Positions 6,713-60,273 of a stretch of 64,000 nucleotides of DNA are shown here, piece by piece (position 1 is the stretch's first letter; each line of letters opens with the position of its first letter). The stretch is from Crocosphaera sp. UHCC 0190. Lineage in GTDB: Bacteria; Cyanobacteriota; Cyanobacteriia; Cyanobacteriales; Microcystaceae. The stretch lies in NCBI RefSeq assembly GCF_034932065.1, contig NZ_JAYGHP010000001.1:248001-312000 (forward strand), in the 5' to 3' direction. The translations under genes were made by a program, and so were the position numbers. The notes beneath the pieces were generated by a model. The model was not told where the DNA came from. It did no database searches and was given only the letters and a program-made list of their open reading frames with translations.

Positions 6713-8998
6713 CTAGGGCTTTTTCAGTAATGATCTTTCTCTAGCCCATTCTAAGATTAACCTTTGTTCAGCACGGGCAATCCCCTGATAAGTAGCAGTT
6801 ACTGCTTCGGGTTCCACAGAAATCGTGGTAATTCCCCACTGTACCAACTGTTCAATAATTTGGGGAGATTGAACAATCAATTGACCACAAATTGAACAAG
6901 GAATATTGAGAGTTTTTGCCTCTTGAATTAAGGCTTTCAGGGCCCCTAATATAGCCGATGAATAAGGAAAAGAAGTATCATTAAACTGGGGATGATCTCG
7001 ATTGAAGCCTAACAATAAAGGCACTAAATCATTAGTTCCAATAGCCACCCCTTGCACCCCAGCTTGGACATAATCAGATAATTGAAAAATGACCCCAGGA
7101 ACTTCTGCCATAATCCACAGTTGAAAAGCATCGGAAGAAATTAAGTTAAATTCTGCAATAAGCTGGCGACAAAAACGGAATTCTTCGACGGTTCGCACAA
7201 AGGGTAAAATCAAATTCAGATTAGTAAATCCTTGCTGATAAACATCAGATAAAGCCTGTAATTCTAAGCGAAATAGGGTTGAATCAAGCTGATATCCTAA
7301 AGTACCTCGACGATCTTGATCCGTGGAAAATTTATCATCAAAGGTTCGATAAAAAATGGGATGGGGAGCAAAAACTTCAGCAAATTGGCCTATCCTTTGT
7401 TTCAGCTTTTCGACAATCTCTGATGGCTGAGCATGGATCAGCCATTCTGTTAGGGAAGCGGGGGGACATAAATCTAACAACATTAATTCTGAGCGAATTA
7501 ATCCTAGTCCATCAATAGGTAAATCCATCACTTGCACCAAGGAACTAGGTTGACTCAAATTAACCATCAATTTTGTGCCAAGAGGATAATTATAAGTTGT
7601 TTTTTCTGGTGACAATAAGGGCTTTTCAAGGCTCACATTTGACTCGTCAATGATATTCAAAAAAATACTTCCTCTGTTGCCATCCAATAAAATTACATCC
7701 CCGGTTTGTAACCAACTGGTAACACCAGACACCCCCACCACCGCCGGAATGCCTAATTCTCTGGCTAAAATCCCTGCATGGCTTGTCATTCCTCCTTCTT
7801 CCGTAATTATCCCTGCGGCTTGCTTAAGCCAAGATAGTTGAAAAGGGTGAATTTTTTGAGTAACAAGAATACTCCCCTCTAATTGAGTCGGTTTAGGCCG
7901 ACTCTCTTGGGTTAATACATAGATTTTCCCCTGAATACGACCAGGAGCAGCCCCAATGCCTATTAATTGAGATTGAGAGGGGGAGATCGAACTGTGTTGG
8001 GTTATCAATGGTGTCCTTTGAGTGGAGAGGGAGGGCAACAATTGCGCGATCGCCCATGAAGAAGATAAGCGATCGCTCGATTCGAGTTTGAGCCATTCTA
8101 AAGATTCCCAATAAATTTGATGGTCTTGTAACCTCTTAATTAGTTGCCATAATTCCGTTAGGGACTCTAGATCTAAACAGGATTGTCCTTGTTCTTCATT
8201 ACTCAGTAAATAGGGTTCTAAGCAACTATCTGTACTGTCTGGATTTTCTAGAGAGGCTTTCAGACGATAGGCGCGGATTTTATTGCCAATTTCTTGTTTA
8301 ATAATTGCTCCGGTTAAGGTCTCAATTTCCCAACTATCCGGTAAAATTTCCCCCTGTAATAAACTATAACCTAACCCCCAATTCCCCTGAATTTCGCAAT
8401 GATTTTCATAATTAGTCCCTGTCCCTGAGGCGATCGCCTGAACCATGGGTTGTACTAAAATGGCGAAGTTTAACTGGTCAATTCTAATCCCCAAACGTTG
8501 CCAATAAAATAAGCTTTTGGCACTTAATAATTGGGCCCACATTTGTTTAATGGCCAATTCCAAATTTTGGGGAGAATTTTCACAGACTTGGGCCGGAGTT
8601 AACCCAGAAAAGTCTTGCTGAGGGGGAAATTGCCCACTTAAAGAGGCACGTAAAATTAAGAATGAGGCTTGGAGAGCGGCGGTTGCTTCTCCTAAACTTT
8701 CATGCCATTCCACCGGAAAAGCTGCACTTAAAATGGCTTGGCGACTCTGTTGGGCCACCAATTGCAAAGCGCGAGGATTATCAACATCTAAATACAGAGA
8801 AGATGTGGGAAAATCAGCTAGAAGTGAACTGACATCGTTTAAATCCTCAAGAAATTGCCGAAAAACTGTAGAACTAATCACAAAACCAGGAAACACGGGA
8901 TAACCACTCTGGGCGAGTTGGCTCAACATCCACGCTTTTTCTCCCACAACGGCATGATCCTGGGATTCAATCTGAGAGAGCCAATAAAGCTTAATCAC
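6713..8998 (-). CDS. PEP synthase-like PEP-utilising enzyme, divergent
   Basis: A 761-aa protein with the three-part layout of phosphoenolpyruvate synthase. There is an N-terminal pyruvate-phosphate-dikinase ATP-grasp domain (about 1-320), a swivelling phosphohistidine domain with GGMTSHAGILARE (phospho-His407) and a C-terminal TIM barrel with LGLIRSELML, YRTFDDK and the catalytic cysteine in CSICGQ. The histidine and cysteine are present. The N-terminal ATP-grasp is degraded: the usual RSSA...ED and IEWA motifs read LRASLSGQ and LEWLKLE, and the barrel's GWRG reads GYQLD. I therefore call it PEP-synthase-like and would not assign a symbol. A hairpin ending in T (6699-6724) overlaps its 3' end from the convergent grxC side. 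Confidence 0.75.
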   Translation of the reverse strand: MIKLYWLSQIESQDHAVVGEKAWMLSQLAQSGYPVFPGFVISSTVFRQFLEDLNDVSSLLADFPTSSLYLDVDNPRALQLVAQQSRQAILSAAFPVEWHESLGEATAALQASFLILRASLSGQFPPQQDFSGLTPAQVCENSPQNLELAIKQMWAQLLSAKSLFYWQRLGIRIDQLNFAILVQPMVQAIASGTGTNYENHCEIQGNWGLGYSLLQGEILPDSWEIETLTGAIIKQEIGNKIRAYRLKASLENPDSTDSCLEPYLLSNEEQGQSCLDLESLTELWQLIKRLQDHQIYWESLEWLKLESSDRLSSSWAIAQLLPSLSTQRTPLITQHSSISPSQSQLIGIGAAPGRIQGKIYVLTQESRPKPTQLEGSILVTQKIHPFQLSWLKQAAGIITEEGGMTSHAGILARELGIPAVVGVSGVTSWLQTGDVILLDGNRGSIFLNIIDESNVSLEKPLLSPEKTTYNYPLGTKLMVNLSQPSSLVQVMDLPIDGLGLIRSELMLLDLCPPASLTEWLIHAQPSEIVEKLKQRIGQFAEVFAPHPIFYRTFDDKFSTDQDRRGTLGYQLDSTLFRLELQALSDVYQQGFTNLNLILPFVRTVEEFRFCRQLIAEFNLISSDAFQLWIMAEVPGVIFQLSDYVQAGVQGVAIGTNDLVPLLLGFNRDHPQFNDTSFPYSSAILGALKALIQEAKTLNIPCSICGQLIVQSPQIIEQLVQWGITTISVEPEAVTATYQGIARAEQRLILEWARERSLLKKP

Positions 8999-9379: not shown

Positions 9380-9799
9380 ATGGTTCAAGCTAAAGAAAAC
9401 ACCAAAAATGATATTGTCTCCATTCCTTTTACTGTTTCTCATAGCGGAGTCTCTGCGACAGAAACCCGTCCTTGGGGATCATTTACTACCCTAGAAGAAG
9501 GGCCCGGATATAAGATCAAACGTATTGAAGTAAATCCTGGCCATCGTCTCAGCTTACAAATGCACCATCACCGTAGTGAACATTGGATTGTCGTATCAGG
9601 AACGGCCAAAGTGACTTGTGGGGATACAGAAGAAATCCTCGGTGCTAATCAATCTACCTATGTTCCTCAGTGTACAAACCACCGTTTAGAAAATCCAGGC
9701 GTGATTAAGCTCATTCTGATTGAAGTACAAAATGGCGAATATCTAGGGGAAGATGATATTATTCGCTTCCAAGATGATTATTCCCGTCATCAAGCTTAA
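9380..9799 (+). CDS. Mannose-6-phosphate isomerase-type cupin protein
   Basis: A single-domain cupin of 139 aa matching the C-terminal isomerase domain of ManC/type II phosphomannose isomerase. I see TRPWGSFTTLEEGPGYKIKRI, then the metal-binding cupin motif 1 PGHRLSLQMHHHRSEHWIVVSG, then CTNHRLENPG as motif 2. The nucleotidyltransferase half of ManC is absent, so it would interconvert sugar phosphates or act as a stand-alone cupin. I start it at the ATG at 9380, which has GAGG nine bases upstream, rather than at an in-frame TTG at 9365 that overlaps that ribosome site. A strong terminator follows. Confidence 0.85.
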   Translation: MVQAKENTKNDIVSIPFTVSHSGVSATETRPWGSFTTLEEGPGYKIKRIEVNPGHRLSLQMHHHRSEHWIVVSGTAKVTCGDTEEILGANQSTYVPQCTNHRLENPGVIKLILIEVQNGEYLGEDDIIRFQDDYSRHQA

Positions 9800-9818
9800 G
9801 AAAAGAAAATAACTTGAC

Positions 9819-9850
9819 AAATCTCTTTACTTATGCTAGAGAGATTTTTT
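9819..9850 (+). terminator. Intrinsic terminator of the cupin gene
   Basis: A perfect 8-bp stem AAATCTCT (9819-9826) and AGAGATTT (9840-9847) runs straight into a T tract, 20 bases after the stop codon. Confidence 0.75.
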
Positions 9851-9884
9851 AATCTATTAAAACTAAACTTTGCCAAGAATAGCC

Positions 9885-9910
9885 TAGGGGTCAACGGCCG
9901 TTGACCCCTA
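9885..9910. repeat. 26-bp perfect palindrome (REP-like)
   Basis: A perfect 26-bp palindrome centred on CGGCCG, with TAGGGG/CCCCTA ends. It lies between the cupin gene and the convergent pgi gene. On the minus strand it begins GTAGGGG, sharing the GTAG head seen in other palindromes of this window. It could also terminate pgi transcription, though no T run follows. Confidence 0.8.
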
Positions 9911-9980
9911 CATCACAAGGTTTTAGGGTCAGTAAATATTCTAACCTTAATACATCCTGCGATAGATTATTGTTATATTG

Positions 9981-11561
9981 TTAACCCGCCGAAACCTTAA
10001 GACTAGAAGGATCACTAAGATCGCCTTTTAAAGCCACACCGCGACCATTTACGGCTAAATGGCGGACAATTTTATACACTGCTTCCACAGCATCGGGCGA
10101 TCCTGCTTTTTCTGCCAAAGTCATCATATCTAAGGCTTCATTCGTTTCTTGAATCACCTTTTGGACTTGGGTTTGTAAGTCTAAAATAGAAGCGGCCATC
10201 TTCTTCCCTGCTTCTACTCCAGGTTGATGATAAGCATTAACATTAACTAAAGATCCATAGAAACTGACTGTCCGTTCATACAGCGCAATTAAGGCCCCAA
10301 CAATGCGAGGATTAACTTGGGGAATGCTAATGGTAATAGAGTCGCGGTTATTCTCATACAATGCTTGTCTGGTTCCTTGAATAAACCCTGATAAATAGTC
10401 TCCTGCCGTTACCCCAGGTTCTAATTCAAACGGAATTGCACGGCCATCTTCTAACACTTCAATAAAGGTAGCAAAAAAGTTAGGAACTCCTTCCCTTAAT
10501 TGTTGAACATAAGCGTGTTGATCTGTTGATCCTTTATTCCCATAAACGGCAATACCTTGATAAACCGTATTGCCATCAAGATCTTTTTCCTTTCCTAAGG
10601 ATTCCATGACCAACTGTTGTAAATAACGACTAAACAACAGCAAACTATCTTTATAGGGAAGGATCACCATATCTTTTTCCCCTTTCCCATTTCCCGAATA
10701 ATACCAAGCAAGGGCTAATAAAGCTGAGGGGTTTGTCTTAATATCTTTAACCCTGGTTGCTTCATCCATCTCTTTCGCTCCTGCTAACATGGCTTGAATA
10801 TCAATGCCTTGCAGGGCCGCGGGCAATAAACCAACGGCCGAAAGTTCAGAAGTTCGTCCCCCCACCCAGTCTTGCATGGGAAACCTAGCTAACCAGTTTG
10901 TCGCTAACTTATCCATGTTACTGCCTGGCATGGTAACAGCCACTGCATGGGGTTCAAAGGCTAACCCTTTGACTTCATAAGCGTGTTTAAGTTCTAACAT
11001 CCCGTTACGAGTTTCGGGAGTCCCACCAGACTTGGTGGTGATCAGAACTAGGGTACTTTTGAGGCGATCGCCAATGCGGGTTAGGAGGCGATCAATACCT
11101 GCCGGATCAGTATTATCAATAAAATGAATGGCCATGGGGGGGAAGTCTGGGGAGAGGGCCTCGGCTACAAATTGGGGCCCTAATGCAGAACCACCGATAC
11201 CAACGGAGAGAACATCGGTAAACTTGTCAGCAGTGGGGGGTTTAATGGTTCCCTCATGTACCTTTTTCACAAAATCAGCAATTTGTGCGAGGGGTTGGGT
11301 AATTTCCTTTCTCACGTCATCATTGGGGGCTAATTCTGGGGCCCGTAACCAATAATGTCCCACCATACGTCCTTCATCGGGGTTAGCGATCGCCCCACTT
11401 TCTAAGGCTTCCATATCTTGAAAGGCTTTCTCAAATTTGGGCTTGAGACTGTCAACGAAGGCATCATCAAAGCGCATCCGACTAATATCAAGATATAATC
11501 CTAATCCTTCGTGATAATAAAGCCAGTCTTGGTAACGTTGCCAGAGTTGTTGCTTATCCAT
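9981..11561 (-). CDS. pgi: Glucose-6-phosphate isomerase
   Basis: Interconverts glucose-6-phosphate and fructose-6-phosphate in the cytoplasm, linking glycogen and sucrose metabolism with glycolysis and the pentose phosphate pathways. The 526-aa protein shows the sugar-isomerase motifs [36 protein letters not shown] and, near the end, [14 protein letters not shown]. The [11 protein letters not shown] segment carries the catalytic-helix residues. Length is normal for the cyanobacterial form. The gene is monocistronic, with a 181-base divergent region shared with the permease gene at 11743. Confidence 0.95.
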
Positions 11562-11677
11562 AGGAATTACTGCACAGGTTGATCACTTAGCAGAGATAGA
11601 CTATTATCTCTCTCAATCGATCATAGATACAGATGCTAAGTATTAGGAGTTAAGATTTCATTATTTTTTTGAGAAAG

Positions 11678-11697
11678 AATTATTGTAGACAATAATT
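11678..11697. promoter_or_regulatory. Inverted repeat upstream of the AI-2E-type permease
   Basis: AATTATTGT and ACAATAATT are separated by two bases, a perfect 9+9 inverted repeat 46 bases before the permease start. The symmetry and spacing fit a dimeric repressor site, but an AT-rich chance palindrome is also possible. Confidence 0.35.
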
Positions 11698-11742
11698 TAA
11701 TGGTATTTTTTTGAGGTTATTTATCCCAATAAAATTCAAGTT

Positions 11743-12816
11743 ATGGAAAATCGTTTTAATGTTCTCGATCTGATCATCAAACTCTTTGTGATCAGCTTGC
11801 TATTTGTTTGGTGTTTTATTCTGCTGCGTCCCTTCATCGAGATTATTCTCTGGGGAGTTATTTTAGCGATCGCCATATTTCCCCTATTCTTATGGCTAAA
11901 AGCCCGTTTAGGGGGACAGGGAAAATTATCCGGGACAATTCTCACCTTACTGGGTGTGGCTGTTATTATTGGCCCGGTAAGTTTGATGGCCACTGTTTTC
12001 GTCGGTAATGTTGATACCTTCGCCGATTATCTTGCGGCCGGTAATTTGCTCATCCCACCTCCCCCCGAAGGTGTCGCTACTTGGCCCCTAATTGGAGAAA
12101 GGGTCAATAATATTTGGCAATCAGCATCAGTCAACTTAGGAGCGGTATTGGCTAGATTTCAGCCACAACTTGAGGCTTTAGCCAAAAACTTGTTATTTTT
12201 AGCCGCTAATATTGGTCTAGTTCTACTGAAGTTTATCGTTTCTATTATCCTGGCTGGATTACTGATGATCAATGCTGAGGGGCTAAACCGTCGGCTGAGT
12301 CAGGTTGTCTTAAGGTTGACCCCAAAACAAGGACAAGGGTTTTTGCAACTGGCCACTGCTACCATTCGCGGGGTGACTCGTGGCATCATTGGGGTTGCTA
12401 TCTTACAAAGTCTTCTCATTGGTCTTGGTTTGATAGTCGCTCAAATTCCCTTTGCTGCTTTATTGACGCTTCTCTGTTTAGTTTTAGCCATTGTTCAAAT
12501 CGGGCCGGGGTTAGTGGTGTTTCCTGCCATCATCTTTGCTTGGTCAACCATGACTACCCCTAGCGCATTACTTTTTACTCTTTGGATGGTTCCGACGACT
12601 CTGGTGGATAATATCCTCAAACCAATTTTAATGGGCCAAGGGCTACCTGTTCCTACAGTCATTATTTTAATCGGTGTTCTTGGGGGAACTTTAGCCCATG
12701 GAATTTTGGGTTTATTTATTGGCCCAGTCATCCTTAGTTTAGGTTATGAGTTAATCATGGCCTGGGTTAATTTTGATTCTTCACCCCTCTCAAGCACCTC
12801 TGATGGTGAAGAATAA
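11743..12816 (+). CDS. AI-2E family (PerM/YdiK) membrane permease
   Basis: A 357-aa polytopic inner-membrane protein of the AI-2E transporter family. Hydrophobic helices lie near residues 9-29, 31-48 and 62-85, a long amphipathic stretch follows (about 88-145), and more helices run to the C-terminus. The family's ILKPILMGQGLPVPTVIILIGVLGG segment and the final GLFIGPVILSLGYEL are present. Family members include Escherichia coli TqsA and several Na+/H+ antiporters, so the substrate cannot be named. It is followed 50 bases later by the baeRF gene in the same direction. Confidence 0.85.
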   Translation: MENRFNVLDLIIKLFVISLLFVWCFILLRPFIEIILWGVILAIAIFPLFLWLKARLGGQGKLSGTILTLLGVAVIIGPVSLMATVFVGNVDTFADYLAAGNLLIPPPPEGVATWPLIGERVNNIWQSASVNLGAVLARFQPQLEALAKNLLFLAANIGLVLLKFIVSIILAGLLMINAEGLNRRLSQVVLRLTPKQGQGFLQLATATIRGVTRGIIGVAILQSLLIGLGLIVAQIPFAALLTLLCLVLAIVQIGPGLVVFPAIIFAWSTMTTPSALLFTLWMVPTTLVDNILKPILMGQGLPVPTVIILIGVLGGTLAHGILGLFIGPVILSLGYELIMAWVNFDSSPLSSTSDGEE

Positions 12817-51301: not shown

Positions 51302-51604
51302 TAATGGTATGGCCAAAGATAATTAAGCTTAAGGGTTGGTTTTAAAAGATTTTACTGACAATCAGCCTATAAGTTTAGTGTATCAAGGTATTTAAAGTTT
51401 GTCTCCCAATTCCCTATGGATGTTTTCTATCCTTAACAGAACCCTCAGCAATTACCAGTATTTTCGATAATATCAACGGTAAGTCAATGAGCTAAGCAAA
51501 ATAGTTCATTAGTATCTTCCATATTTAGAGTCTTTCTTCTAAGATAAAAGATCCAAACGCTACATATAGAGTTTGCCCTAATTTAATTGGAAGGAGAAGG
51601 AAGT
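51302..51604. other. 303-bp divergent region before the CyRepA1-like gene
   Basis: This region divides the glycosyltransferase and replication-protein genes. Apart from the GGAAGGAGAAGG ribosome site before 51605 I see nothing decisive: no clear iterons, no tRNA and no recombination site. Confidence 0.4.
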
Positions 51605-54600
51605 ATGAACCATCAACAAGAATGGTTAAATAGTTGTGTCGATGCACAACTGATCGCACTTAACGTCACCGCTTTAGCGGGGACTTCTCCTTCCGAATAT
51701 TTGCTCTATTCTGAGGCACTTCCTCGACGAAATGATGGCAGAGTTAATGATACCATCTTAAAGCGTTATGAACACACAGAACAAGGGGGTTGGTGGTGTT
51801 CCGGTGTTGATGTGATCACAGGAAATGAAGACCTATGGGGGTGTTTTAAACCCGATCAGCCTCGTCTGAGTTATGATGCCCATAAACCGATTAAGTATGA
51901 ACATCCGCCCCAAACTCCGACAGGAATTTTTGCCTTAAAAGTTCCATTGCACCTATGGGAACAATTAGGACAAAGGCATCAGGTTAATTTTACCTCAGAA
52001 ATCATCGATGAGACACAAACCGATTTAGGATTTTGGCAATGGGTCATCGATCATCCTACTATTCCCCTTTGTATCACAGAAGGGGCCAAAAAAGCGGGAG
52101 CTTTATTAACGGCAGGTTATGCAGCGATCGCCCTTCCTGGGATTAATAATGGTTATCGTACCCCCAAAGATGAGGCAGGAAATCGCATTGGTAGGTCTCA
52201 TCTTATTCCCCAATTACAAAAGTTGGCAACCCTTGGACGAACTATTTATATTATTTTTGATCAAGATAGTAAACCAAATACAATGAAAGCGGTTAATGCT
52301 GCGATTAAAAAATTAGGTTATTTATTAAATCAAACGGGGTGTCAAGTTAAAGTGATTACTTGGAGTCCTGATCAGGGAAAAGGGGTTGATGATTTTATTG
52401 TTAATCAGGGTCAAAAAGCTTTTGATGAATTATATCAAAAAGCCTTGCCTTTAGAGACTTGGAAAGCCAGAGAATTAACTCAATTAACTTATCCTGCTAA
52501 TCTTGAGGTAAACTGTCCTTATCTTCAGCCTTTTCCTATTCCAAATACTGCGAAACTAATTGGCATTAAATCAGGGATTGGCACAGGAAAAACCCAAGTT
52601 TTAGAAACTATTGTTAACCAAGCGATCGCCCAAGATCAAAAAGTTTTAGTGATTGGTCATCGTATTAAACTGGTTGAGCAAATTTGTCAACGATTTGGCT
52701 TACCTTATATTACAGAAGTTCTGGAAAAGCCCTTAAGTAAAGAATTAGGTTATGGGTTATGTATTGACTCTTTACATGAAAATTCTCAAGCAAATTTTAA
52801 TCCTAATGACTGGCAAGATGCCTTAGTTATTATTGATGAAGTTGAACAAGTAATTTGGCATGGTTTAAACTCGGAAACCTGTAATAATTATCGTGTTCCG
52901 ATTCTTAAATCCTTGAAAACTTTAATACAAAATGTCTTAGGTGGTCAGGGAAAAATCGTGATTGCTGATGCAGATTTAAGTGATATTTCTTTAGACTATT
53001 TAATGACTTTATCTGGTATTAATTTACAACCATTTATTGTCAAAAACGATTGGAAACCCAAGCAAAAAGAAGCATGGGAAGCTTATAGTTATCCAGAAAC
53101 AACCCCAAAACGATTTCTCAAAGATTTAGTTGAACATATTCGTCAGGGAGGTAAACCTTTTGTCTGTTTATCTGCCCAGAAATTAAGCAGTAAATGGGGA
53201 ACACAAACCTTAGAATCTTACTTACAAAAACAATTTTCAACAGCTAAAATTCTTCGCATTGATTCTGAATCTTTAACCGATCCTACTCATGGTGCTTATC
53301 AATGTATAACTAACCTTAATGATGTGTTGGGTAACTATGATATTGTCTTAACCAGTCCTTCCATTGAAACAGGAGTTAGTATTGATCTCAAAGGACATTT
53401 TACCTCAGTTTGGTGTTTAGCTCAAGGAATACAAACTCCTACCTCCATCTGTCAATCATTAGGGAGAATTCGGGAGAATATTCCCCGTTATCTTTGGTTA
53501 GCATCTTATGGGTTTAATAAAGTAGGAAATGGCTCAACTTCTATTCCTAATCTTTTAACTTCTGGTCATCGGTTAACTCAGTTAAATATTCGGCTACTTC
53601 AACAATCTGATTTAGAATATTTAGATGATTTAGATACAGGATTTCAAGCAGAGTCTCTACTCTGTTGGGCAAAAATGGCCGTCAGAGTAAATGCTCAAAT
53701 GATTAATTATAGAGACTCCATTTTAGGTATTATTCAATCATTAAATCATCAGATTAACCCACCCCCCAAAATCACAAAACTGTCGCAAAAACAAGATAAG
53801 AAACATGATTTGGTTAATGATTTAACCGAAACTATTGAGCAAGTACAAGAACAAAACTATCAAGCAGAATGTGAAGCAATCTCCAAAATAAAAGAGTTGA
53901 GTGATCAACAATATCAAACCTTAAAAAAACGGCTAATCAAAACAAATAAAGAACGTCGTGCGCTTAAAAAATATGATTTACAAAGACGATATTGTGTTCC
54001 TGTTACCCCTCAATTAGTGGCCTTAGATGATGATGGTTGGTATCAAAAACTCAGAATTCATTACTTCTTAACAATGGGACGTAATTATCTCGCAGATAGA
54101 GATACAATTGTGGCCAGAAAATTAATTGAACAAGGCCAAGGTGGCGTATTTTTACCCGATTTTAATGGTTGCCAACTGGGAGCAATTATTGGTACAATGG
54201 AGGTGTTAGGTATTCCAATTTTATTAAGGGATATTCAGCGACGACTAATTAATAGAGATCCTGATCTGATTAAACTATCAGAAATCGCTATTAATAACCG
54301 CAGTGATATCAAAACGATCATGGGAATTGGTATTGCCAAAAATGCCAGTCCCATTACAATTATTAGACGTTTATTAGATAAAATTGGTTATGGTTTGACC
54401 GGAATTTGTACTCAAAAGATTGAGCAAAAACGAGTTCGAGTCTATCAAGTTGTCACCCCCAATGATGGCCGAGAGGAAGTCTTTCAACAATGGTTATTAA
54501 GAGATCAAAAATCCCCAGGAAGTTCCGAACCTTGGTTTGAAGAATATCTTAACTTAAAAGTCAAAATTCAAGACTCAGAAACGTCAGTCAATCACATTCA

Positions 54601-54622
54601 ATTAAGTTTAGACTTTTCTTAA
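51605..54622 (+). CDS. Plasmid replication protein, CyRepA1-like (DUF3854 plus helicase)
   Basis: A 1005-aa protein resembling the CyRepA-type replication proteins of cyanobacterial plasmids. Residues about 90-265 form a DUF3854 toprim-like domain: TEGAKKAGALLTAG (158 on), ALPGINNGY and IIFDQDSK (217 on). A helicase-like ATPase follows, with Walker A GIGTGKT (324-330), VLVIGHRIKLVEQ, Walker B VIIDEVEQ, TSPSIETGVSID and the motif-VI-like CQSLGRIRENIPRYLW. The last 300 residues hold a charged coiled stretch and a helical tail. I start at the ATG at 51605, with AAGGAG eight bases upstream, not at a TTG at 51587. It is followed after 21 bases by a DNA methyltransferase gene. Whether it initiates replication here or is a domesticated copy is unknown. 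Confidence 0.82.
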   Translation: MNHQQEWLNSCVDAQLIALNVTALAGTSPSEYLLYSEALPRRNDGRVNDTILKRYEHTEQGGWWCSGVDVITGNEDLWGCFKPDQPRLSYDAHKPIKYEHPPQTPTGIFALKVPLHLWEQLGQRHQVNFTSEIIDETQTDLGFWQWVIDHPTIPLCITEGAKKAGALLTAGYAAIALPGINNGYRTPKDEAGNRIGRSHLIPQLQKLATLGRTIYIIFDQDSKPNTMKAVNAAIKKLGYLLNQTGCQVKVITWSPDQGKGVDDFIVNQGQKAFDELYQKALPLETWKARELTQLTYPANLEVNCPYLQPFPIPNTAKLIGIKSGIGTGKTQVLETIVNQAIAQDQKVLVIGHRIKLVEQICQRFGLPYITEVLEKPLSKELGYGLCIDSLHENSQANFNPNDWQDALVIIDEVEQVIWHGLNSETCNNYRVPILKSLKTLIQNVLGGQGKIVIADADLSDISLDYLMTLSGINLQPFIVKNDWKPKQKEAWEAYSYPETTPKRFLKDLVEHIRQGGKPFVCLSAQKLSSKWGTQTLESYLQKQFSTAKILRIDSESLTDPTHGAYQCITNLNDVLGNYDIVLTSPSIETGVSIDLKGHFTSVWCLAQGIQTPTSICQSLGRIRENIPRYLWLASYGFNKVGNGSTSIPNLLTSGHRLTQLNIRLLQQSDLEYLDDLDTGFQAESLLCWAKMAVRVNAQMINYRDSILGIIQSLNHQINPPPKITKLSQKQDKKHDLVNDLTETIEQVQEQNYQAECEAISKIKELSDQQYQTLKKRLIKTNKERRALKKYDLQRRYCVPVTPQLVALDDDGWYQKLRIHYFLTMGRNYLADRDTIVARKLIEQGQGGVFLPDFNGCQLGAIIGTMEVLGIPILLRDIQRRLINRDPDLIKLSEIAINNRSDIKTIMGIGIAKNASPITIIRRLLDKIGYGLTGICTQKIEQKRVRVYQVVTPNDGREEVFQQWLLRDQKSPGSSEPWFEEYLNLKVKIQDSETSVNHIQLSLDFS

Positions 54623-54643
54623 TAAATATTTTTGTAAAACACT

Positions 54644-55513
54644 ATGATTAAAAGTCCTTTACGTTATCCTGGTGGAAAATCAAGAGCAATTAAACAAATT
54701 GAACAGCAACTTCCTCAAAATTTTACTGAATATCGAGAACCTTTTGTTGGTGGGGGTTCAGTCTTTATTTATCTAAAACAAATTAAACCTGATCTTAAGA
54801 TTTGGATTAACGATTTAAACCCAGAATTATACTTGTTTTGGAAATTTGCTCAATCCAATTTACAAGAATTAGTAACAAACCTTCGAGAAATCAAATTAAC
54901 CCGTACAGATGGCAAAAAACTGTTTGCAGAATTAACCAAGGTTGACGTAACAGAATTATCCGATTTTGATAGAGCAATTCGTTTCTTTATTTTAAACAGA
55001 ATTACTTTTTCCGGTACGGTTGAATCAGGAGGATTTTCTCAATCAGCGTTTCATACAAGATTTACTGAATCATCAATAAACCGCTTAGAAAATTTAAAAA
55101 ATATTCTCCCAGATATCTACATTACTAATTTAGATTATCGTGAAGTTATTAAGGAAAAAGTCAAAGATGTCTTTATTTTTTTAGATCCCCCTTATTTAGC
55201 AGCAACCAAATCTAGACTTTATGGAAAAGATGGAAACTTACATACTTCCTTTAATCATGGAGAATTTGCCGAGGCAATGGCAAAATGTTCACATCAATGG
55301 TTAATTACTTATGATGATTCTCCAGAAATCAGAAATTATTTTGAAAACTTTATGATTATCCCTTGGCAATTACAATATGGCATGAATAACTATCAACAAA
55401 AAACCGCCAGTAAAGGCAACGAGCTATTTATCAGAAATTATCAACTTAATGAGCACTTATCAGTTAAATTACCAGAGATCCAACAATTATCTTTAAACTT
55501 AAACAGCCATTAA
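54644..55513 (+). CDS. D12-class N6-adenine DNA methyltransferase (Dam family)
   Basis: A 289-aa N6-adenine methyltransferase of the Dam/D12 class. The SAM-binding motif is RYPGGKSRAIKQI at the N-terminus, with YREPFVGGGSVF as motif I, and the catalytic motif is DPPY in FIFLDPPYLAATKSRLYG. Dam relatives methylate GATC, a sequence inside the HIP1 octamer, but the target of this enzyme cannot be read from the sequence. No restriction endonuclease gene is next to it, so it is an orphan methylase or part of the replication module. It lies 21 bases after the CyRepA1-like gene and is probably co-transcribed with it. Confidence 0.88.
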   Translation: MIKSPLRYPGGKSRAIKQIEQQLPQNFTEYREPFVGGGSVFIYLKQIKPDLKIWINDLNPELYLFWKFAQSNLQELVTNLREIKLTRTDGKKLFAELTKVDVTELSDFDRAIRFFILNRITFSGTVESGGFSQSAFHTRFTESSINRLENLKNILPDIYITNLDYREVIKEKVKDVFIFLDPPYLAATKSRLYGKDGNLHTSFNHGEFAEAMAKCSHQWLITYDDSPEIRNYFENFMIIPWQLQYGMNNYQQKTASKGNELFIRNYQLNEHLSVKLPEIQQLSLNLNSH

Positions 55514-55536
55514 AAAATGTAAATATTTAACAACCC

Positions 55537-55560
55537 TTCAATCTAGTTTGTTAGATTGAA
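55537..55560 (+). terminator. Possible terminator of the methyltransferase gene
   Basis: TTCAATCTA (55537-55545) and TAGATTGAA (55552-55560) form a perfect 9-bp stem with a 6-base loop, 24 bases after the stop codon. The T run that follows is poor, so termination strength is doubtful. Confidence 0.45.
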
Positions 55561-55591
55561 AAGAGTCTTTAAAATCCCTAATTGAATTCCT

Positions 55592-55852
55592 ATGTCGAGA
55601 ATTAATCCCCATACCTTACAAATGCAGATTTCCCAAATGTTCGACCAAGGACAATCCTTTTTTTGCGCCATCAAAGTACAAGATTGGTTACGGGAACAAA
55701 ATGAAGATCCCAATGCTTACGAGATCCTATTTCATCCCCAACCCACCCCCCCCAATGCTAAGGTCAAAACCCTGATTAGTATTGAATTACGGCGACGAGA
55801 CGGACAAGAAGTTGATCCTTGGTTACAGGAAGAAATCAACCGCAGTTGTTAG
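55592..55852 (+). CDS. Hypothetical protein, 86 aa
   Basis: Unrecognised soluble protein with no signal peptide or membrane helix. It reads MSRINPHTLQMQISQMFDQG, then QDWLREQNEDPNAYEILFHP, then LISIELRRRDGQEVDPWLQE. Composition and codon use look like a real gene, and the ATG lies 78 bases after the methyltransferase stop. It may belong with the ribF transcript (73 bases downstream) or stand alone. I see no basis for a function. Confidence 0.65.
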   Translation: MSRINPHTLQMQISQMFDQGQSFFCAIKVQDWLREQNEDPNAYEILFHPQPTPPNAKVKTLISIELRRRDGQEVDPWLQEEINRSC

Positions 55853-55925: not shown

Positions 55926-56867
55926 ATGTACAGTCAATCCAATCTGTGGGTAACTTCATCAACAACTGACGTATTCACCCCAACGGCGATCGCCCTAGGG
56001 AACTTTGACGGTATCCACCTTGGACATCGCCAAGTCTTGCAACCAATTTTGCAACGCCCAGAAGCTGAAATTTCCACCGTTGTGACTTTTACACCCCATC
56101 CCCAGGAATTTTTTAGCGGAAAACCGCGTCTACTGCTTACCCCCCTCACAGAAAAGGTTAAATTACTTCAATCTCTAAGTATTAAACAATTAGTACGATT
56201 ACCTTTTGATCGAGAGTTAGCGTCCCTGAGTCCCCAAGAGTTTGTGGCCAATATTTTAGTCAAACAACTCCACGCCAAATATATTAGTGTAGGGCAGGAT
56301 TTTCGCTTTGGTCAGGGACGTACAGGAACAGCCGACCAATTGCAGGAATTAGCCGCTAATTTTGGCGTATCCGTTCATATTACGACCCTAAAGACTTGTT
56401 CCCCCCTCGTTGATGACACCCTTCGTATTAGCAGTTCCCGCATTCGCCAAGCATTGGCCAGTGGGGACGTAATTCAAGCCAAAGAGATGTTAGGCTATCC
56501 CTATACCTTAAAAGGCATGGTAGTAACAGGCCAACAGGTAGGCAGAGTCATAGGTTTTCCTACGGCTAACCTGCAACTGCCCCCCGATAAACTCCTTCCC
56601 CGTCGTGGCGTTTATTGTGTTAGGGTTCAAGGAGAAACCGCCACAGAGATCAAGGGAGTGATGAATATTGGTAGTCGTCCCACCGTCAATGGTCAAGTTC
56701 CTACAGTTGAGGTTCATTTATTAGACTGGTCAGGGGATTTATATGGACAAACCTTAACTGTAATGTTAGAAAAATTTCTACGGCCTGAACAAAAATTTCC
56801 CTCTTTGGATGCACTGAAATGTCAAATACAAGAAGATTGTTTATTAGCTAGAGAAATTTTCGGATAG
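55926..56867 (+). CDS. ribF: Bifunctional riboflavin kinase/FAD synthetase
   Basis: Makes FMN from riboflavin and then FAD from FMN, in the cytoplasm. The 313-aa protein has the N-terminal nucleotidyltransferase domain (about 1-180) with ALGNFDGIHLGHRQVL and FRFGQGRTG, followed by ISSSRIRQALASGD. The C-terminal riboflavin kinase domain (about 185-312) shows GRVIGFPTANLQLP, GVYCVRV, GVMNIGSRPT and EVHLLDWSGDLYGQ. Length and both signatures are normal. Confidence 0.95.
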   Translation: MYSQSNLWVTSSTTDVFTPTAIALGNFDGIHLGHRQVLQPILQRPEAEISTVVTFTPHPQEFFSGKPRLLLTPLTEKVKLLQSLSIKQLVRLPFDRELASLSPQEFVANILVKQLHAKYISVGQDFRFGQGRTGTADQLQELAANFGVSVHITTLKTCSPLVDDTLRISSSRIRQALASGDVIQAKEMLGYPYTLKGMVVTGQQVGRVIGFPTANLQLPPDKLLPRRGVYCVRVQGETATEIKGVMNIGSRPTVNGQVPTVEVHLLDWSGDLYGQTLTVMLEKFLRPEQKFPSLDALKCQIQEDCLLAREIFG

Positions 56868-59136: not shown

Positions 59137-60273
59137 ATGACTCAACCTAATCAGTCTAACGCAACCAGCACCAAGTTAGTGAAGGTGTTGAAAAAAACCA
59201 TTAAAACTGTGATGACAAAGCAGGGGGTTAACCCATCAACTCGTAAGGGAAATAAAGAGTTAGATATTTTGGTTAAGCAATTGGCTAAACAACCTTTTCC
59301 TTCTGAAGAAGAAGCCAAAACTGCCGCTGAAAAACTGGGACGAAGTTTAGTTGAGTTGTCCCAAAAAAACGGGAAAACTTATTTAGACAAAGGAGTTGTG
59401 AAAAATTTTTCTTTACTCGGTATTTCATCTATTTTAGCTTCCTCTTCTCCGACAGAAGAAACACACACTATCACTAAAGTCTCTGTTACTCCCGTTGAAG
59501 CAGTAGAAGAAACCACTGATAAAGTTCCTGAAACTGCAGCAGAAATTATCTCGGAAACAGTTGAAACTGTGATTGAAGCAGTAGAAGAAACCACTGATAA
59601 AGTTCCTGAAACTGCAGCAGAAATTATCTCGGAAACAGTTGAAACTGTGATTGAAGCAGTAGAAGAAACCACTGATAAAGTTCCTGAAACTACTACAGAA
59701 ATTATCTCGGAAACAGTTGAAACTGTGATTGAAGCAGTAGAAGAAACCATCGATGAAGTTCCTGAAACTACTACAAAAATTATCTCGGAAACAGTTGAAA
59801 CTGTGATTGAAGCAGTAGAAGGACTCAAAGAAAGACTCACAGAAGATATTAAATTAGCCATGAAAGCGAGGGATAAAATTCGCTTAGAAACTGTGAGAAG
59901 TATCAAAAAAGTTGTTCTAGAAAAAGAGGTTGAAGTTCGTCCCAAAGGACAAGAAAAATTAACCCCAGAGCAAGAATTAGAAGTGTTATCACAACAAGCA
60001 AAACAGCGTCGGGACTCGATTGAACAATATCGTCAAGGGGGTAGAGATGATTTAGCTGATAAAGAAGCTCTGGAATTAGCAATTATTGAAACCTACTTAC
60101 CTGCTCAACTTTCTGATGAAGAAATAGGGGGAATTATTGACCAAATTATTGCTTCATCTGGAGCAACTTCTCCTAAAGATATGGGAAAAGTTATGGGGCC
60201 AGTCATGAAAGAATTGAAGGGTAAAGCTGATGGCAAGAAAGTTCAAGAAATGGTAAAAGAAAAACTCAGTTAA
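59137..60273 (+). CDS. YqeY/GatB-like protein with a repeated acidic linker
   Basis: A 378-aa protein in three parts. Residues 1-105 are an N-terminal basic helical region (STKLVKVLKKTIKTVMTKQG, EEAKTAAEKLGRSLVELSQK) of unknown role. Residues 121-224 are four copies of a 26-residue acidic unit (EAVEETTDKVPETAAEIISE...). From 229 on lies a complete YqeY domain (LKERLTEDIKLAMKARDK, LETVRSIKKVVLEKEVEVR, YLPAQLSDEEI and KGKADGKKVQEMVKEKLS). YqeY is related to the tail of the amidotransferase subunit GatB and is thought to bind tRNA. Ordinary YqeY proteins are about 150 aa, so the extension is unusual. Confidence 0.82.
   Translation: MTQPNQSNATSTKLVKVLKKTIKTVMTKQGVNPSTRKGNKELDILVKQLAKQPFPSEEEAKTAAEKLGRSLVELSQKNGKTYLDKGVVKNFSLLGISSILASSSPTEETHTITKVSVTPVEAVEETTDKVPETAAEIISETVETVIEAVEETTDKVPETAAEIISETVETVIEAVEETTDKVPETTTEIISETVETVIEAVEETIDEVPETTTKIISETVETVIEAVEGLKERLTEDIKLAMKARDKIRLETVRSIKKVVLEKEVEVRPKGQEKLTPEQELEVLSQQAKQRRDSIEQYRQGGRDDLADKEALELAIIETYLPAQLSDEEIGGIIDQIIASSGATSPKDMGKVMGPVMKELKGKADGKKVQEMVKEKLS
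59497..59820 (+). repeat. Four 78-bp in-frame tandem repeats in the YqeY gene
   Basis: Units start at 59497, 59575, 59653 and 59731, and a partial fifth starts at 59809. Each is 78 bp (26 codons). The first two are nearly identical at DNA level, and the later two differ at a few codons (ETTTEII, TIDEVP, TKII). Length variation between strains is expected. Confidence 0.95.

Follow-up and report, generated by a model that had tools for sequence, protein, structure and literature searches.

A chromosomal CyRepA1 gene of Crocosphaera sp. UHCC 0190 with an NrdR-type box pair at its promoter, a candidate primase-helicase of chromosomal replication

The CyRepA1 and CyRepA2 proteins of cyanobacterial plasmids drive autonomous replication (PMC10899382, PMC10079941), which raises the question of what a CyRepA1-like gene does in a chromosomal setting, directly ahead of an orphan adenine methyltransferase gene. 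We analyzed a 64,000-nucleotide stretch of DNA (the window) that contains both genes (Table 1). The CyRepA1 gene lies on a 635 kb contig with eno, rimO, and ribF close by, and its orthologues in complete relatives are also chromosomal. It is therefore a chromosomal member of its family and not a plasmid Rep in use, that is, not a plasmid-encoded gene driving the replication of that plasmid. Its left neighbor is a GT2 glycosyltransferase gene on the minus strand, and the methyltransferase gene starts 21 bp past its stop codon on the same strand. An earlier note on this DNA had placed the pair between the glycosyltransferase and ribF genes; both are present, but a small gene missing from that description precedes ribF.

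Table 1. Features of the CyRepA1 locus (positions count from the first letter of the window)
Feature	Coordinates	Strand	Basis or remark
NrdR-type box 1, CTTCCATATTTAGAGT, weaker half of tandem operator	51516..51531	+	upstream element conserved across genera
Putative -10-like hexamer TAAGAT between the boxes	51540..51545	+	same spacer offset in 22 of 47 orthologous loci
NrdR-type box 2, ACGCTACATATAGAGT, strong palindrome	51557..51572	+	conserved in O-type loci
CyRepA1 gene (O-type, chromosomal), primase-helicase-like, 1005 aa, ATG start	51605..54622	+	NF042913, DUF3854, tree, dN/dS, model
N-terminal DnaG-like primase region, residues 1-290	51605..52474	+	toprim (DUF3854) 143-272; E159, D219, D221
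SF2 helicase core, residues 294-720	52484..53764	+	Walker A GIGTGKT, IIDE, QSLGRIR
C-terminal helical region, residues 736-1005	53810..54619	+	model confidence, secondary structure; conserved within O-type
D12-class orphan adenine methyltransferase	54644..55513	+	PF02086, PADLOC oMTase; neighbor, outside the proposed system
86-aa gene, no known family	55592..55852	+	conserved partner of the methyltransferase
ribF	55926..56867		right of the 86-aa gene

The description of the protein as CyRepA1-like, with a toprim-like DUF3854 domain and helicase motifs, was borne out. Its reading frame matches NCBIfam NF042913 over the helicase part at 2.1e-161 and 538.8 bits (curated cut-off, 200 bits) and Pfam DUF3854 at 5e-57, with GIGTGKT at residues 324-330 and IIDE at 409-412. 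In the structure model (pLDDT 88.9; 92.6 for a model of the N-terminal region), a region with a DnaG-like primase fold precedes an SF2 helicase resembling UL9, of the origin-binding-protein type, from which primase and helicase activities are predicted; residues 724-735 are modeled as a disordered variable linker ahead of the C-terminal helical region. All four Foldseek matches to the PDB below 0.001 for the N-terminal region were DnaG catalytic domains (best E 9.6e-7, TM about 0.5), and the toprim acidic residues of the DnaG RNA-polymerase-domain fold are in place, with E159 and D219 invariant. Because its score against the DnaG family TIGR01391 (22.6 bits) falls below the 283.6 cut-off, we describe the region as DnaG-like and not as a DnaG.

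The helicase core is of the UL9 SF2 type, with a PDB profile match to HSV-1 UL9 at 5e-9 and a VIA-align Z of 23.9 to UL9 (9hgi) over model residues 268-989, an alignment that reaches residue 989 at an rmsd of 15.6. UL9 and the origin-binding helicases or helicase-primases of giant viruses are the best structural matches of this part, and those in the viral library were annotated as origin-binding protein or helicase-primase; the structural alignments, however, show 11-14% identity, and no alignment of UL9 to the N-terminal primase region was found. No close phage relative was found, the best match being 23% identical, and for a role in defense PADLOC gave weak domain-level matches only. The catalytic motifs are intact.

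CyRepA1 shares family, length, domain order, and toprim and helicase motifs with the CyRepA1 proteins of pSYSA (Slr7037) and pAQ1, but differs from them in sequence (41% identity), in belonging to a separate clade, in being a chromosomal single copy, and in its tandem NrdR-type boxes. Chromosomal CyRepA homologues, the class to which this gene belongs, have been reported in 80 of 145 cyanobacteria by authors who ask for functional validation (PMC10899382). Beyond that description, we found that the class splits into two separate clades, O-type and N-type, and here it gains an NrdR and ribonucleotide reductase context. The O-type proteins form one chromosomal clade apart from plasmid CyRepA1 proteins (SH-aLRT 100); plasmid copies in PLSDB are at most 53% identical to our protein, and orthologues are 54-75% identical. 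Single-copy and vertically inherited, the gene is present in 34 of the 35 genomes of the host's family (G025 is the exception, and Crocosphaera watsonii WH 8501 carries an internal stop) and is under purifying selection (dN/dS 0.09-0.24). The earlier note had suggested a domesticated initiator as one reading, with which these features agree. It had also held that one gene order in all relatives, with purifying selection and no origin activity, would point to a role outside replication; the selection is there, but the gene order is not the same. No conserved operon partner emerged: apart from CyRepA1 itself, clusters of neighboring genes are common to at most eight of the compared loci, mostly within genera.

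The other origin put forward in the earlier note, a trapped or recently integrated plasmid replicon able to fire from the chromosome, did not hold up and appears very improbable to us. Membership in the CyRepA1 family would fit it, but the clade is ancient and has a single origin, and searches found no iterons or direct repeats upstream of the gene and no plasmid genes adjoining it within the stretch read. Base composition is likewise ordinary (36.4% GC in the gene against 38.3% in the window), and the neighbors differ in every genus while the promoter is conserved.

The methyltransferase gene is of the D12 class, as stated before: it matches PF02086 at 5.6e-42 (144.7 bits against a cut-off of 22), has FLDPPY in its translation, and matches the PADLOC orphan methyltransferase at 1e-146, with a score of 114.4 against TIGR00571 dam, just under that model's cut-off of 114.85. 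We considered whether it controls the CyRepA1 gene or protein, a gating by methylation proposed earlier for which the 21 bp gap on one strand, the GATC sites inside the CyRepA1 gene, and the order retained in one relative (G002, with a CHASE2-GGDEF-type gene in between) might speak. In nearly all relatives, however, the methyltransferase is located away from CyRepA1; it is absent from two probable UCYN-A genomes (G007 and G015) and broken in EtSB (G020), where CyRepA1 is intact. Its conserved partner is instead the 86-aa gene, which has no Pfam or NCBIfam match and also adjoins it in G002, G012, G024, and G033. The 288 bp upstream of CyRepA1 hold one GATC, as expected by chance; GATC is indeed part of HIP1, as had been pointed out, but the window as a whole shows no enrichment, with 236 sites against 223 expected. 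CyRepA1 and the methyltransferase are neighbors by coincidence, and we regard methylation gating as extremely unlikely.

Two 16-bp boxes with centers 41 bp apart lie upstream of CyRepA1 and form the best pair in the window (28.6, against 3.0 for the next independent pair). Box 2 is the sole zero-mismatch match in the 4.43 Mb genome to a pattern derived from the CyRepA1 sites themselves and run as one pattern search. Tandem boxes were found at 46 of 48 O-type loci, and at 34 of 40 held-out loci from nine families compared with 0 of 1000 shuffles. Center spacing in orthologues is mostly 40-43 bp (31 in family f29), and many loci have a weak box 1. Between the boxes, a hexamer matching TATAAT at 4-6 of 6 positions occurs at the same spacer offset in 22 of 47 orthologous loci; the strength of the match is itself near chance, so this putative promoter is no more than suggestive. 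No box pair was seen ahead of the plasmid CyRepA1 genes that we tested, including that of pSYSA (and pAQ1, whose upstream stretch is short), or ahead of dnaA in the same genome.

NrdR is a repressor that senses ATP and dATP and silences ribonucleotide reductase once dNTPs are abundant. The host encodes it (TIGR00244, 1.1e-67), and among the sites found in this genome a strong box pair occurs only at the CyRepA1 and ribonucleotide reductase promoters. Across genomes, the pair precedes ribonucleotide reductase in 19 of 19 with NrdR and in 0 of 3 without it, where the boxes have been lost together with NrdR. These reductase pairs, mostly spaced 32 or 42-43 bp, are found by the same matrix as the CyRepA1 boxes, at sites to which CyRepA1 is usually not adjacent; in genus g7 the CyRepA1 and reductase genes are neighbors that diverge from a common promoter region, about 480 bp apart. 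Like the operators of ribonucleotide reductase operons, the CyRepA1 operator has two 16-bp palindromes that flank the putative promoter a whole number of helical turns apart, but its target is a primase-helicase and not a reductase, and four-turn spacing predominates where three-turn spacing is commoner in the regulon. NrdR tolerates a spacing of four helical turns (PMC12051234), which fits the CyRepA1 boxes, and their length, palindromy, and central AT also match the published site with its three- or four-turn spacing (PMC12051234, PMC12176259). NrdR probably binds them.

The boxes could instead be an operator for CyRepA1 itself or for another regulator, with the dNTP link misread. Box 1 is often weak, NrdR binding is so far a prediction from sequence, and UCYN-A keeps a degenerate upstream element despite having no NrdR, so NrdR regulation is not essential there. 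Against this stand the agreement with the published site, the recovery by the same matrix of reductase pairs only where NrdR exists, and the lack of the pair at plasmid CyRepA1 genes; we consider a regulator other than NrdR quite unlikely.

Some service to plasmids also has to be weighed, in which the chromosomal protein acts in trans on CyRepA-type plasmids by replicating, mobilizing, or limiting them, or works as an anti-plasmid factor. Its plasmid relatives are replication proteins, and a second CyRepA1 relative lies on a 25 kb contig of the same genome. Yet single-contig genomes of 1.4-3 Mb (G007, G015, G020, G026, G031, and G034) keep the O-type gene although nothing else in them matches at E 1e-20, and control in common with ribonucleotide reductase is hard to square with such a role, which we think unlikely.

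A candidate role in chromosomal replication likens CyRepA1 to DnaA. The gene is kept in all nine dnaA-less genomes of the host's family, including probable UCYN-A (1.44 Mb; dN/dS 0.09 between two UCYN-A genomes) and diatom spheroid bodies. It is not a simple DnaA replacement, since most genomes with an O-type copy also have dnaA, and co-occurrence lends that idea no support: the copy is present in 15 of 54 dnaA-less genomes and 100 of 237 with dnaA, hence without enrichment in the former. Several clades without dnaA do not have the gene: G046, G049, and G095 are devoid of any CyRepA1 relative, and G045, G055, and G073 of an O-type copy. In complete genomes dnaA lies far from the CyRepA1 gene, giving no association with oriC, and 800 kb sampled from probable UCYN-A gave no coherent GC or coding-strand skew centered on it.

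Because the gene is chromosomal, is kept in DnaA-less endosymbionts, and has NrdR boxes in common with a gene that makes dNTPs, CyRepA1 is probably part of copying its own chromosome. The reading we favor, with reasonable though far from full confidence, is that of a domesticated primase-helicase that serves chromosomal replication and is expressed together with dNTP synthesis through NrdR. The chromosome would have adopted a plasmid-type replication protein in a common ancestor of several families of cyanobacteria, with vertical inheritance ever since. NrdR would bind the two boxes flanking the promoter and so couple CyRepA1 production to dNTPs, and the protein would most likely open and/or prime DNA, either where replication starts independently of DnaA or where forks have stalled. 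Only tentatively do we suggest the stronger version, in which the O-type protein is a plasmid-derived, NrdR- and dNTP-licensed, DnaA-independent chromosomal initiator, probable UCYN-A and spheroid bodies included, and the N-type clade, likewise derived from plasmids and with NrdR-type box pairs in some families, came to the same role independently.

How chromosome replication starts without DnaA in Synechocystis-, Nostoc-, and endosymbiont-type cyanobacteria is a standing question (PMC7198777, PMC6315102). What is new here is the NrdR-type box pair at the CyRepA1 promoter, which provides a regulatory context for the chromosomal CyRepA class and, being common to ribonucleotide reductase, singles out one gene of primase-helicase architecture kept even in a 1.44 Mb genome. 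If CyRepA1 works in replication, recruitment of a plasmid replication protein to the chromosome would have happened at least once and perhaps a second time, with its expression tied to the dNTP supply.

The window lies within a 635-kb contig of a 4.43-Mb draft genome. The close pairing of a CyRepA1 gene and a D12 methyltransferase gene described in an earlier note was confirmed there. Homologues of CyRepA on chromosomes are already known, with their function unvalidated (PMC10899382), and the window gene belongs to them.

Features of the window around the CyRepA1 gene
Feature	Coordinates	Remarks
NrdR-type box pair	51516-51531 and 51557-51572	two 16-bp boxes upstream of CyRepA1
CyRepA1 gene	51605-54622	presence confirmed
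D12 methyltransferase gene	54644-55513	presence confirmed; 21 bp from CyRepA1 gene
86-aa gene	55592-55852	between methyltransferase and ribF
GatB/YqeY-like protein gene	59137-60273	first half of the protein holds several tandem copies of a segment of about 29 residues (VIEAVEETTDKVPETAAEIISETVET)

Among 58 related genomes searched, a single orthologue (57-75% identity) was found in all but one of the family's 35 genomes (34 of 35) as well as in several genomes from outside it, and most matches beyond these orthologues were at most 46% identical. Plasmid copies in PLSDB reached a maximum of 53% identity to the window protein (41% for pSYSA and pAQ1). In a tree of 84 sequences, all 47 chromosomal sequences of this kind, here called O-type, formed one group (SH-aLRT 100) in which genera with at least two members mostly cohere, and dN/dS was 0.09-0.24 for the O-type pairs compared. 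The single clade, the nearly family-wide orthologue, the low plasmid identity and the dN/dS values contradict the suggestion of a trapped plasmid replicon; the alternative offered with it, domestication, is supported. Proteins of UCYN-A1 and UCYN-A2 diverge by 14% on average (PMC6315102), and the two copies from the probable UCYN-A genomes, G007 (1,443,806 bp) and G015, differ by 12%. In the shrunken genomes, CyRepA1 has kept its Walker A motif, its DE box, the arginines of motif VI and the toprim acids intact. The Crocosphaera watsonii WH 8501 copy (L009, L081) carries one internal TAA at about residue 610, either a sequencing error or a real loss. In genus g12, the copy of G030 is split over two contig ends near residues 722-739 (L117, L118) and G025 lacks the gene, for which insertion and loss are possible explanations. 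The only further CyRepA1 relative in the window's own genome is 26% identical and lies on a 25-kb contig, presumably a plasmid.

The earlier note had also proposed that the initiator could be gated by methylation, and this was not supported: orthologues of METHYLTRANSFERASE, the D12 methyltransferase, lie at other genome positions in nearly all relatives, and G007 and G015 have no copy while that of the spheroid body G020 is broken, although CyRepA1 is intact in all three. What stays beside the methyltransferase as its conserved partner is the 86-aa gene, which had no match in Pfam or NCBIfam and also adjoins it in G002, G012, G024 and G033. The two lie side by side in five genomes, which represent four genera (window 54644-55852; L033, L034, L036, L038), and this orphan methyltransferase and the small gene may form a functional pair. 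The gene order in G002 is CyRepA1, a CHASE2-GGDEF-type gene (L085, 11180-12910; labeled by reading its translation), methyltransferase and 86-aa gene, which suggests that the nearness of CyRepA1 and methyltransferase is old in part of the family and was later not kept.

Upstream DNA from 15 relatives could not be aligned save for about 80 bp directly before the CyRepA1 gene, which in a wider comparison resolved into a 16-bp palindrome present twice, with a sequence of about ACRCTANATATAGYGT. In length, palindromy, central AT and spacing these match NrdR boxes, which function in pairs set three helical turns apart or, with lower efficiency, four (PMC12051234, PMC12176259). A weight matrix derived from the boxes at CyRepA1 was put to three tests. 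The held-out test is clean: for 40 orthologues from nine families, 34 exceeded the maximum of 1000 shuffles, which preserve base composition only, and 37 exceeded the 1% level. The in-sample count (46 of 48 loci) is partly circular, the matrix having been taken from those loci. Ribonucleotide reductase promoters carried the pair in 19/19 NrdR-positive and 0/3 NrdR-negative genomes. In the window's own genome, considering every pattern hit that had no more than one mismatch, strong pairs occur only at the CyRepA1 (28.6) and ribonucleotide reductase (23.0) promoters, the next best scoring 9.5. No pair was found in eight upstream regions of plasmid CyRepA1 copies. In genus g7, CyRepA1 and the reductase gene (ATP-cone, PF00317, PF02867) are transcribed divergently, and the gap of about 480 bp that separates them holds the boxes of both. 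G007 and G015 (L013, L014, L210, L220) lack NrdR and dnaA; their reductase promoters show no box pair and their CyRepA1 boxes are degenerate and decaying. A -10-like hexamer lies between the boxes at constant offset in 22/47 loci, with match strength near chance. The literature examined, with the curated NrdR collection (RegPrecise) outside its scope, held no report of a box pair common to CyRepA1 and ribonucleotide reductase.

In Nostocaceae and certain other families, complete chromosomes bear a single copy of another kind (N-type), 36-38% identical overall to O-type. N-type stands apart in the 84-sequence tree, with plasmid sequences between the two. Given the long branches, two independent chromosomal adoptions are likely but not proven. 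The box pair is present in 3/15 N-type loci and at L116, an additional f20 copy that groups with N-type in the tree. Within the N-type clade (L134-L147, L151), such pairs occur in families f20 and f32 and one f31 genome.

At order level, 54 of 291 genomes lack dnaA, and all nine such genomes of the window's family keep the O-type gene (G003, G013, G021, G034, the spheroid bodies G020, G026 and G031, and G007 and G015, which are probably UCYN-A). O-type CyRepA1 as a general DnaA substitute was nevertheless rejected, because dnaA-less G046, G049 and G095 have no CyRepA1 relative at E 1e-10 and O-type presence is not enriched without dnaA (15/54 vs 100/237 with it). It is established that several cyanobacteria replicate independently of DnaA; the discussion of the source names no initiator (PMC7198777). 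On one contig (G028:C158, L119), dnaA (7226-8533) and O-type CyRepA1 (9536-12547) are about 1 kb apart, unlike in complete genomes.

AlphaFold2 models were confident (pLDDT 88.9 for the whole protein, 92.6 for residues 1-300). For the N-terminal 300 residues, DnaG catalytic domains were the only matches under E 0.001, though the sequence falls well short of the DnaG cut-off. For the helicase part, the nearest match by both profile (5e-9) and fold (Z 23.9) is UL9, the origin-binding protein of HSV-1, and origin-binding helicases and helicase-primases of giant viruses were prominent among viral library matches. Such likeness between modelled folds does not show function.

Predicted control by NrdR, in common with ribonucleotide reductase, is well supported by the promoter comparisons, and family, fold, control and retention together point to a replication role. 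At high dATP, NrdR would bind at both boxes and shut off the promoter; a shortage of dNTPs or a greater demand for replication would switch on CyRepA1 together with ribonucleotide reductase. Once made, CyRepA1 would most likely unwind DNA and prime its synthesis in chromosomal replication, either where starts do not depend on DnaA or where forks have stalled.
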